From positions 4,258,001 through 4,322,000 of the forward strand of contig NC_090946.1 in NCBI RefSeq assembly GCF_040807025.1: a DNA stretch of 64,000 bases, given 5' to 3'. Made by a program: the position numbers and the translations under genes. The notes below the pieces were generated by a model. That model did not search any database. It had not been told where the DNA came from and was given only the letters and a program-made list of their open reading frames with translations. Position 1 is the stretch's first letter. Each line of letters starts with the position of its first letter. Positions 36,731 through 46,960 of this stretch are shown here, piece after piece. The DNA is from Struthio camelus (Eukaryota > Chordata > Aves > Struthioniformes > Struthionidae).

Positions 36731-39700
36731 ATGTCTTTACCTTCCTCTTTCTCAGTAAGTAATGCCTTCCACCCAGCACTCTGATGCCCTTGCACTTTTC
36801 ACGCAGCTGAACGAACGCCTTCCAAAGTGCACTGCACTCTAAAAGAACCTGTATCTTTGCTCCCTGTAGGCGTGCTATAGCCTGAGAGACAGGAAACCTG
36901 TTATATGCGATCAAGCTCCACTGGAAAGTACGTCAGAGGCAGCGCTTCTCGGAAGGGCTAATTTCTCGCCTCTAAGCGGGGGACAGGCGATGCGACGTGA
37001 AAACGTCCGTACGCTCAGCGCAGTCCCAAATTAGAGCTAGCTTCTGTCATTGTAGGCCCATCAAAGGCAGGTGAACGCCACGCAGGGGAAGATGGCCGCG
37101 CCTCTCACAAGGAGTATAACCTTCGACCCAGGAACGCTGTCGTCCAGGATCAAGAGCCATCGGAACGTGGGTTATCGGCACCGTTGGTCTGAAGGGCTGA
37201 TTGCTTGTGTTTAAGGGCGGGGGAGTACAGCTTTCCTGAATGAGACGGTACATATGCAGTGGCAAACCAGATCCGATGCCCGGGCACTGTAATTACAGGG
37301 TCCTCAGAAGACGAGCAAGAGCAGGAAGAGGATGATGGCGAAGGCACCGCCCGGGCACCTCACCTCAGGCAAACTGCTGAAGACGCTGCCGCTCCCCGGG
37401 AAGGTAGGCTAGATGCAGAGCCTCTCTGAAGGGCTCGTTTCTTGTGTGTAAGTGGGATACAGGCTGGGCAATGCAAGCGTATACACGCACAGACAAATCA
37501 GAAGCTCTCTCTCTAGGCTCTGTGATTACAGGGGCAACACGGGAAGGTGAAGGCCGGGAAGGGGGAGATGGCAAAGGTCCCTGGAAGCAGTATAGCCTTC
37601 GAGCCAGGAAGACTGTTGCCTACTCCCAGGATGCATTGGAAAGTAGGTTCCATGCACAGTTTCTCGGAAGAGCTGATTTCTTGTGTAGAGTGGGCTACAA
37701 GGGGCTAAAGGAAAACACAACTTTCATTGACGTTCCCTGCCTTCGTTCTGCAGGTCAGGCTCTCCCTTTGGGATTGAGATGCCTGTAACCTGTGCACGTT
37801 GCACTTCTTGGCCAGTGTGCAGGCTCATTGCTGCTTTTTGTTTCTTCAGGCCCATCTTCTGCTGCCAGACCAAGAGCTGCGTCGAGCCGTGCTCGGTCGC
37901 GAAGCCCGTGCTGCAGAAGAACAAGCAGGTCGGTGTACGGCTAGTGATAGTTCTCAGGGATCCGTAGCGGTGCAACTCCCATCACCGAGTAACGCGTGTA
38001 AAGCTTTTCTAAGGGATGCTCAGGAGGGGGAAAAATCTCAGCATTGTAGCTGTGGCAGTCAGAGGGTCTAGAGGGAGCAAGGCTTTTCCTTTGGGACAGG
38101 AGAGAACTTTCATTCGCCAACAGCTTGTAAAAAGGCAGGATTTTGCCATGGGGTAGCCAGCCATGAGATGATGGTGGCGGAGGTCCTGGCTGAGACTGGG
38201 TAACGGAAATCCTTCTGTTCTACACTTGAAGCCAGAATCCCCTGCCACAAACTGACGTTAGACGATGTCATGGTGAAGTAGAACAATGATTTTCTTAACC
38301 CAGGCAGGCAATTCAGTCAGACCTAGAGGGAGAGCGTCTTGCTAAGTTTGAGTAAAACTTCAGTCTCTTCTGTCTCATGGTTGAAAATGGGTCCATTTAA
38401 ATTGGACATGTGGCTCGAGCAGAATTCTTCTTTCCTCCGAGAGATGGGCCTAGCTTCACAACATCCACGTTTACGCTAGCGTATAAGCGTTTCTCCACTC
38501 GCTTGCCAACATGAAAGCCACAGCTATCCCTCTACCTGCAGCTTCATTATAAAGCCCCTTTCCCTTTCTCCTTCTTGCACAACAGGGGTCTTCCCCTAAA
38601 CTCTGGGAAGGATGAATGCGAGGGAAAGCACGCGGATGGAAGGAAAACCGGAACCAACCTGCCGGAAGTGGATCCAGTGCAAACCGAGAGTTCGGTGAGG
38701 AGCGGGAACTCCCTGAGTCGGTGGGGACCTTCCCAGCATTCATGAAAACCTTCCTGACTGTGCTGTCAACAGCTCCCGTGCTTTACGCTTTCCTCTCGGG
38801 GAACTTCCAGGTCGCCCTGAACCTTCCCTTTGGGCTGGCCTTGGACAAATTTGGAGGAAGCCTTTTTTGGCTAGGCTGCAGCTTTCTCTGACCGCTGACA
38901 TGTCTCCTCTTCAATGTCTCCCTAGGTATGCTTTGATGGTGTCGGCGGTCTCGCTGACCACATTTCCGCTTTAAAGGAGATGGTGCTGTTTCCCTTACTT
39001 TACCCCGAGTTCTTTGAGAGATTCCAAATCCGACCCCCCAGGTAACGGACGCTGCCTTAGAACTACACATGCTAATTGCGCTCGTCTCCGGAGAATATGA
39101 AGCGGAGGGGTCAGCACAGCTGTGCGCTTCCACATTTTTGCCCGTGCACAGTTTGCGCAGTGGCGGTAAAAAGGAATTTCTTACAAATGGCTTACATCCA
39201 GACCTATCTAGACCTACTTTCAAACCACAAGCAACGCCTTGTCGTAGTCAAAGGCTCAGTGTCCAGCGTTGTCAAAGCTGAAGACGCTGCAGAAGGGTCC
39301 TGGTTTCAGAAGGTGGCTTTGGGAGTGCTTCTGCTGGTTGGCTTCTGAGTGTTTAGGAAAAGTTTATAAGCGGGAAGGCACTAGGCCCGGCAAGTCACCT
39401 GTACGCTCTTGCTGGAGAGACCTGCTGACTTCCCGCCTCCCTCTCTTTGCAAGGCTCAGTCAAAAAGAGCTTGCGGCTTTTTCCGCCAGAAAGACAGGCT
39501 GTGCTCGCAAGTCTTGCCTCTTGGGAACACTTGCACCTGCCTGGACTTTCCTCCCACCGGAGCTCTTCCTGCTGTCTAATGGTGCAAGTGTTTTGGTTAG
39601 GAGGGAAGGGTGCTTTGCTTTCAGGACAGCGGTTGCCACAGGCACTTTTCCATGTGTTGGTTGTAGCTGCGTACATCTCTTTTTCTCATGTTGCAGAGGC

Positions 39701-45700: not shown

Positions 45701-46960
45701 GCTAACCTTTTCTGGTTGACTGGAGGTTGTCACACACTGCAAGGCCTGCCTGTGGCATCCCCACCTGAGCCTCGACTGCTGACGGAGGAGGAAGAGAGGC
45801 AGCTGGAAGAGCAAGAGGAGGACACATTGCCAGCGGTGCCTGCAGATGCCAGTACAGCCCTCTCCGGTGGCAAGGTCCCTTCGATTTTCTGTTGGAGCTT
45901 TTTGGTCTTTTGGGGATGAGCTGCCAATGGCGTTGCTACCTTCCCTGTTGCCATGGCATGCCAGGCTTTGGAGATGCGGCGGCTTTATGCCAAAGGCATT
46001 CCGTTTCGGACTGCGTTTCAGCATGGGAGGTGAATGCCCAGGACGTTCAGCCAGCATGCTTACCAAGTAAAGGCCAGCCACAGAGGTTGGGTCACACTGG
46101 AAAACCCTGGCCTGGATGGCCCTGCAACTGCTAACTCCTCAAATGTTACATGCTGTTTAGAGCAGTTGCTGAACGCTCCGCAAGTTCTTCCCGGCATAGG
46201 AAAGAGGCCGTCTTTTCCCTTTGCCTTGCCTTCCTTTTTCGCTTCTTCTCCCTCTCGCCTTGCTGCCAGCACAATGGCACTTGAGTGCCTCTCGCCATTT
46301 CCCTGGTGCACCAAGTAAGAGGACGATGCTCGATTTCAAAGACAGAACTGCTTAGGTAATGCTTTGGCGTGCTGCTTCTGCTATCTCTGTGCAGCCGTAT
46401 GCAGAGGAAAGCGAAGGCGGCCCACATCGCCCTCAGAGAGCCTAGCAGAGAAGAGGAGGAGATGTTCAGCCGCTGCTGAGAAGGAAACTAACATCTGCCT
46501 CCTTTGTTGTGTCCCAACACATCGAGAGCCTGTTCAGAAGATCCCGTGCAGCTGTAAACTTGTACTGTCTGGCTTTTTTCTTCAGCAGCTGCTGAATGAC
46601 ATTGGCGAGGCAACCAAGGACTGCAGCATACGCCACCTCGAGAAACTCCATCTGGTGCTCAGCCAGTGCACTTACCGCCACCGGCAGGACAATGACAGAA
46701 CTCGCTTAATAGAGGTATTTGCTAAGTAGAGCCAACCAGCGACGGCATGCATCTACAGATCCTTTTCTTTTCCCTAAAGAACTCAGCTGCAGGGGTTGTG
46801 CATTTTTCTTCCCGCTTATAGCAAGTTTGTCTTTGGTTGGTTGGTGACTGTTGCTATTGTCAATCTTTTTTTTTTTTAGGAAATGAAGGAAGCAATTGGA
46901 AACTTCTCCCGTGCTCCTAACGTGAAACTCAGGAAAGGGGCGCCTGGAAGACAGGAATAA
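36731..46960 (+). CDS. ATAD2-like AAA+ ATPase without bromodomain, copy 2
   Basis: ATAD2 proteins are nuclear AAA+ ATPases that remodel histones H3-H4 on chromatin; yeast Yta7 and fission yeast Abo1 are relatives. Exons: 36731-36754, 36870-36927, 37056-37166, 37299-37403, 37532-37642, 37850-37928, 38586-38694, 38926-39041, 39697-39871, 40169-40257, 40598-40757, 41924-42014, 42476-42790, 43415-43487, 43754-43937, 44770-44955, 45447-45582, 45726-45835, 46586-46714 and 46880-46960. They join in phase to 813 codons plus TAA, with no stop. AAA1: Walker A GPPGTGKT at 244-251, Walker B IIFFDEID at 304-311, IGATN at 348-352, LRRPGRFD at 361-368. AAA2 is degenerate, with GEPGYGQT at 556-563 (no lysine), as in ATAD2 itself. 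The C-terminal helices ([20 protein letters not shown]) remain. ATAD2 has about 1,390 residues; the bromodomain expected after residue 744 and most of the acidic N-terminus were not found. Exons 1 and 18 are tentative. Confidence 0.82.
36870..37642 (+). repeat. Intragenic exon array, copy 2
   Basis: Same four-exon array as in copy 1, exons 36870-36927, 37056-37166, 37299-37403 and 37532-37642. All exons begin and end in phase 1 except the first, which begins in phase 0, so exon number can change without breaking the frame. Confidence 0.8.
41356..41476. repeat. (TCCTC)n microsatellite, copy 2 intron 11
   Basis: About 24 pentamers at the same intron position, without the TTCTC tail seen in copy 1. 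Confidence 0.95.

Follow-up and report, generated by a model that had tools for sequence, protein, structure and literature searches.

A putative multi-copy ATAD2 paralogue without a bromodomain in a tandem array of the ostrich genome

The window considered here is a stretch of 64,000 nucleotides from Struthio camelus (C5:4258001-4322000), in a genome of 1.45 Gb and 262 contigs. At positions 36731-46960 of its forward strand lies a predicted 20-exon gene of the ATAD2 family, in which the two AAA domains and the C-terminal domain are present and no bromodomain was found. The gene sits in one unit of a tandem array, and a diverged sister array lies on a second contig, C11. An earlier, sequence-only reading of the window had proposed a bromodomain-less ATAD2 paralogue; the two arrays were absent from it, and they are what changes the picture most.

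Gene structure and family identity

Exons joined by homology and by GT-AG sites give a coding sequence of 2454 nt (817 codons and the stop codon). The sequence-only reading had counted 813 codons between identical start and end positions, a figure that has to be corrected, but its 20-exon frame with 19 junctions in phase was reproduced with GT-AG at all 19 introns. The gene has kept these 19 introns, and the intron loss of a processed pseudogene is not seen. All the features of the gene are on the forward strand:

36731-36754 (+): exon 1, proposed start exon MSLPSSFS with ATG and GTAAGT donor, phase 0; the weakest exon
36870-36927 (+): exon 2, first YxLRxRK module; GT-AG, in phase; resembles human ATAD2 YYLRQRK...QAPLE (tblastn E 0.39)
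37056-37166 (+): exon 3, second module, LRxRN; GT-AG, in phase
37299-37403 (+): exon 4, acidic segment; GT-AG, in phase; resembles the ATAD2 acidic stretch (tblastn E 0.30)
37532-37642 (+): exon 5, third module, YSLRxRK; GT-AG; matches the human ATAD2 N-terminal region (tblastn E 0.033)
37850-37928 (+): exon 6, RPR...RSP segment; GT-AG; tblastn E 1e-4
38586-38694 (+): exon 7, segment immediately N-terminal to AAA1; GT-AG; tblastn E 1.4e-7
38926-39041 (+): exon 8, start of AAA1, from the human ATAD2 match and the frame
39697-39871 (+): exon 9, AAA1 with Walker A GPPGTGKT; conserved in C11
40169-40257 (+): exon 10, AAA1 with Walker B FFDEID; conserved in C11
40598-40757 (+): exon 11, AAA1 segment with GATNRPD and RRPGRFDR; 159 of 160 bases as in C11
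41924-42014 (+): exon 12, start of the AAA1 lid; conserved in C11
42476-42790 (+): exon 13, AAA1 lid and linker to AAA2; conserved in C11
43415-43487 (+): exon 14, shortened knob region; conserved in C11
43742-43937 (+): exon 15, AAA2 with degenerate P-loop GEPGYGQT; conserved in C11
44770-44955 (+): exon 16, AAA2; conserved in C11
45447-45582 (+): exon 17, end of AAA2; conserved in C11
45726-45835 (+): exon 18, linker arm; acceptor AG and donor GT conserved in C11
45836-46585 (+): intron 18, the site of the bromodomain exons in ATAD2
46586-46714 (+): exon 19, C-terminal domain; matches C-terminal residues of human ATAD2 chain 8h3h_A (E 1e-8)
46880-46960 (+): exon 20, end of the C-terminal domain and stop, with AATAAA overlapping the stop codon

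The product matches human ATAD2 (8h3h_A) with 799 bits over AAA1 and AAA2, and the next family is Abo1 with 482 bits, in a ranking of the best 60 of 293 matches. Because no human ATAD2B chain is among these 60, ATAD2B was compared directly over three segments drawn from exons 16, 17 and 18. The window protein is identical to ATAD2 at 74 of 110 residues and to ATAD2B at 53 of 111, and the C11 protein gives 76 of 110 and 54 of 111 over the same segments. Across the AAA core, 329 of 468 aligned residues (about 70%) are identical to human ATAD2. AAA1 has a Pfam AAA match at 2e-49, and its Walker A (GPPGTGKT), Walker B (FFDEID) and RRPGRFDR segment are all intact. The second AAA domain aligns to human AAA2 and its P-loop is degenerate (GEPGYGQT), as is described for ATAD2-type proteins in PMC13060104.

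The exons that close the frame bear out the claim that it ends in the family's C-terminal helices: exons 19 and 20 encode a C-terminal domain matching human ATAD2, with the match to 8h3h_A covering residues 777-828, and this domain would form part of the lower ring tier. In the knob region (exon 14) the alignment has a gap of 20 residues against human ATAD2, the region being otherwise present. Toward the N-terminus, tblastn gives no clear counterpart in the unit for human residues before about 240, while the LRxRK module (weak, E 0.033), the RPR...RSP segment (weak, 1e-4) and the pre-AAA1 segment have counterparts; from their position, exons 7 and 8 probably include the N-terminal linker. The LRxRK exon with its flanking introns is itself tandemly repeated within the gene (36870-37642; exons 2, 3 and 5, with self-matches of 66-86%). 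The pre-AAA1 segment, AAA1, AAA2, linker arm and C-terminal domain are thus retained, and the first 240 residues or so, the bromodomain and the long linker that follows it are lost relative to ATAD2. On this homology the gene is a putative ATAD2-derived paralogue that lacks one defining feature of the family, the bromodomain, and so is not a full member in architecture.

Search for a bromodomain

A scan of the whole genome with Pfam PF00439 gave 48 matches at E<=0.001 (all 77 candidates scored), none of them in the C5 or C11 arrays. Ten of the longer stop-to-stop frames of 45626-46726 had no Pfam match at E<=10, one 79-residue frame and shorter ones being left out. With the bromodomain of the ostrich's own ATAD2 as query, tblastn found no bromodomain in 33805-50400 (best E 1.4), and the best E in the C11 stretch with exons 9-20 was 0.25. 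As positive controls, the identical query and script recovered exons of ATAD2 (E from 2e-17 to 9e-34) and of ATAD2B (2e-13 to 3e-26). When human ATAD2 was used as the probe, ten matches were obtained, and ATAD2-type bromodomain exons occurred only at C2:160.16 Mb (ATAD2, three) and C3:15.88 Mb (ATAD2B, three); the other four are 32-39% identical and lie at loci that also match the general bromodomain model. With the frame search and tblastn negative and the positive controls working, the claim that no bromodomain lies between exons 18 and 19 stands. The genome's own ATAD2 (C2) and ATAD2B (C3) both carry bromodomain exons, and in the arrays none was found.

The predicted direct, in-phase joining of exon 18 to exon 19 is also supported, since the frame agrees and the junction is kept in the diverged C11 copy. 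Intron 18 is unrelated between C5 and C11 over most of its length, while the donor GT of exon 18 and the acceptor AG of exon 19 are both kept; this pattern would be expected of a genuine intron at a place where a domain was once lost. Conservation extends about 20 bases beyond the exon 18 donor, to about 45856, and a second GT at 45852 is conserved too; conservation alone cannot separate the two donors, and the GT at 45836 was chosen because only this one joins exon 19 in phase. The sole other in-phase exon noticed there, 46395-46555 (KRRR-rich, in phase with donor 45852 and with GT at 46556), had looked like a relic of the ATAD2 post-bromodomain linker and was rejected, its acceptor and sequence not being conserved in C11. 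Another intronic frame, 45066-45311, was likewise rejected, being open in C5 and closed in C11.

Tandem arrays, a second lineage and selection

The gene belongs to an array with a period of about 13.1 kb, the units in the window being 13.06-13.15 kb long and 99-100% identical:

19231-64000 (+): part of the array within the window, consisting of a partial first unit, units 2 to 4 and the start of unit 5
36566-49665 (+): tandem unit 3, about 13.1 kb, with the gene inside; its limits follow the chosen register

From C5:4277231 on there are 13 full units, with a gap of 200 N at 4454924; the end of the array, near 4.467-4.477 Mb, is inverted. The coding frame is open in 11 of the 13. Units 2-4 differ by three coding substitutions, and their comparison was uninformative. 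The CTCCT microsatellite of intron 11 (41359-41475) differs in length from unit to unit. Copies reversed relative to the main C5 array are found at C5:2910001-2930000, about 1.35 Mb away, and at C5:4467000-4477000, the far end of the main array, which suggests inversions that broke or used the array.

A 60-mer from exon 11, with up to three mismatches allowed, has 61 matches in the genome, all without mismatch, and the reversed control has none. They are distributed over C5 (15), C45 (6), C65 (1), C151 (8), C224 (12) and C11 (19), that is, 42 of C5 type and 19 on C11; the 60-mer is identical in both lineages, and the small contigs were assigned to the C5 type by a separate comparison. Protein matches to exon 13 number at least 43 of C5 type and at least 19 on C11, lower bounds from 129 of 509 scored candidates, with one more diverged match on C8. 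As the small contigs C45, C65, C151 and C224 may represent alternative haplotypes and further copies may be hidden in the gap, the true number may be lower or higher. The single C8 copy (C8:807306-807596, +), which is 64% identical to human ATAD2 in exon 13, is possibly a third lineage. Amplification to dozens of homogenised copies is, in our judgement, unusual for a vertebrate chromatin motor.

The diverged array on C11 consists of two blocks in opposite orientation, about 0.9 Mb apart: C11:4845496-4952206 (-), with nine units, and C11:5876167-5995926 (+), with ten, at a period of about 13.0 kb. Exons 9-20 of one C11 unit were compared with the window gene. All 12 acceptors and all 11 donors are conserved, exons 9-19 contain no indel, and no stop interrupts them in C11. 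Over these 553 codons, 503 residues are identical, synonymous divergence (dS) is 0.129 and nonsynonymous divergence (dN) is 0.044 by the Nei-Gojobori method, giving a dN/dS of 0.34, for which the central 95% of 1000 codon bootstraps is 0.23-0.50 and none reaches 1, indicating purifying selection on the predicted motor. Amino acid differences in exons 9-17, polarised by human ATAD2, fall eight times on the C5 side and 13 times on the C11 side (17 are ambiguous); by this measure the relaxed lineage does not seem to be that of the window. In exon 20, C11 stops at ...NFSRAQ, near the end of the human chain (the human NFS aligns three residues before the end), and a small indel in C5 makes its protein 13 residues longer. 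Exon 11 differs at a single base in 160 against an overall dS of about 0.13; either local interchromosomal gene conversion or unusual constraint could account for this.

An intronless FEN1-like gene, a name that we presume from its sequence, precedes the array by about 4.8 kb (13324-14469, +; Pfam XPG_N and XPG_I). We take this gene to be syntenic with chicken chromosome 5, and as a neighbour it argues for an autosome like that one; a Z-linked location was rejected. A frame at about 16048-16115 (+) is similar to the FEN1-like gene read on its reverse strand, as though a copy of part of that gene lay here inverted. Endonuclease fragments of long interspersed nuclear element type lie just before the partial first unit (17518-18542, +), with two weak Pfam matches below the curated cut-offs. 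The frame 18629-19069 has no Pfam match, and the window has no Rfam match at gathering scores.

Interpretation, alternatives and known systems

The proposal of a bromodomain-less ATAD2 paralogue gains support from homology, from the bromodomain exons present in the genome's own ATAD2 and ATAD2B, from the splice sites conserved in C11 and from a dN/dS well below 1. We read the locus, with a probability of roughly 0.6, as a real, multi-copy, protein-coding ATAD2 paralogue that builds an ATAD2-type hexamer freed of acetyl-lysine targeting. Its gene structure, the absence of the bromodomain, the amplification and the purifying selection are the parts that follow from the sequence itself. In the human ATAD2 structure, the lower tier contains AAA2 together with the C-terminal domain, and the bromodomain could not be resolved (PMC10539301); for ATAD2B, too, an ordered C-terminal domain and an unresolved bromodomain are described (PMC13060104). 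Because the ordered parts are retained in the paralogue and most of the flexible parts, except the linker arm, are discarded, ring formation would be possible and guidance by acetylated H4 would be gone. Such a hexamer may pull on histone tails, or on histone chaperones bound to chromatin, with no steering towards acetylated H4. It would work at any site where it is placed, either by itself or in rings shared with full-length ATAD2, with copy number perhaps supplying dosage. In mouse spermatogenesis ATAD2 acts on chaperone turnover, and its preference for acetylated chromatin is ascribed to the bromodomain in the discussion of PMC12818868. A germline (spermatid) setting for the paralogue would be a guess from ATAD2 biology. 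The suggestion of the sequence-only reading that this would be a different chromatin factor seems reasonable.

Several points weigh against this interpretation. The dN/dS compares two lineages within one genome through one C11 unit and reports averaged past selection rather than present activity, and support from the second lineage covers exons 9-20, the N-terminal exons 1-8 lying outside the comparison. Two of the 13 full units are broken, unit 2 by a nonsense change in exon 11 and unit 5 by the loss of 4 nt from exon 12. No homology supports the 24-nt exon 1, and where the protein truly starts is uncertain; by eye, the donor of exon 6 (GTCGGT), the context of the exon 18 acceptor and the exon 18 donor (GTGCCT) all look weak. 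The knob, which in relatives contributes to keeping the hexamer assembled, is short by about 20 residues. Intact motifs are no proof of activity, since truncated human ATAD2 has very low ATPase activity (PMC10539301). The gene model is predicted from the DNA sequence.

Among the alternatives, one would have the bromodomain-less subunits join full-length ATAD2 and dilute its affinity for acetyl-lysine, as a dosage-sensitive antagonist. The retention of the ring-forming parts together with the loss of the targeting part fits this regulatory role, and high copy number would favour a titrating subunit; however, about 30% divergence in the core and the shortened knob may prevent mixed rings, and we regard it as doubtful. 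It is unlikely that the copies are a recently dead pseudogene family, in which a former ATAD2 duplicate was amplified as a passive, satellite-like array and lost its translation. Copies that are 99-100% identical could be too young for decay, and two of the 13 units are already broken. Loss of coding constraint, which would mark an unprocessed pseudogene, is nevertheless not what is observed: 11 of the 13 units are open, dN/dS is 0.34 at a dS of about 0.13 with 553 codons free of stops in C11, the 12 acceptors and 11 donors of exons 9-20 persist in the C11 copy, and the C5 protein has not evolved faster than that of C11 (eight against 13 polarised changes). That exons outside the unit or another gene supply the bromodomain, making the mature protein a normal ATAD2, is highly improbable: a duck ATAD2-like locus, LOC113841329, is described as an ATAD2 bromodomain homologue in a passage of PMC11476845, but ATAD2-type bromodomain exons occur here only on C2 and C3 (the other four of ten matches being 32-39% identical), tblastn found no bromodomain in the 13.1-kb unit or the C11 stretch, and the two lineages both have an in-phase junction of exons 18 and 19.

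The constrained, reader-less paralogue may also be given a broader history, put forward tentatively: a motor older than both arrays, present in more than 60 copies on two chromosomes, that in one lineage of birds would strip histones or histone chaperones in bulk from germline chromatin irrespective of acetylation, or take part in a dosage conflict there.

A literature search gave, among the matches listed, no bromodomain-less ATAD2 paralogue and no amplification of ATAD2 in birds, which is no proof of absence. Papers on ATAD2 and ATAD2B treat the bromodomain as part of the machine (passages of PMC13060104, PMC12818868 and PMC10539301), and drug work aims at the ATAD2 bromodomain (PMC10539301). 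A constrained form that lacks it in nature would mean that the ring has tasks independent of acetyl-lysine reading, and would provide a ready-made separation-of-function variant; the amplification would point to selection for dosage or to genetic conflict.

Abo1 from fission yeast and Yta7 from budding yeast share the tandem AAA+ histone chaperone core, but have a bromodomain tier above the ring (PMC13060104) that the putative paralogue could not form. ATAD2B has the family architecture as well; unlike the paralogue it keeps the bromodomain, and the paralogue is less similar to it than to ATAD2 (53 of 111 against 74 of 110 residues). The short mouse isoform of ATAD2, ATAD2S, keeps the bromodomain and is a product of the single Atad2 gene, whereas the paralogue is a separate, amplified gene. 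Like the paralogue, this isoform, found in spermatogenic cells, is without the N-terminal acidic domain (PMC12818868), and an N-terminally truncated ATAD2 construct has been likened to ATAD2-S (PMC10539301). Compared with ATAD2 itself, in human and in the ostrich, the paralogue has the LRxRK and pre-AAA1 segments, AAA1, AAA2, linker arm and C-terminal domain in identical order; it differs in lacking the bromodomain and the long linker that connects this to the C-terminal domain, in being shorter by about 240 residues at the N-terminus and about 20 in the knob, and in being tandemly multi-copy.

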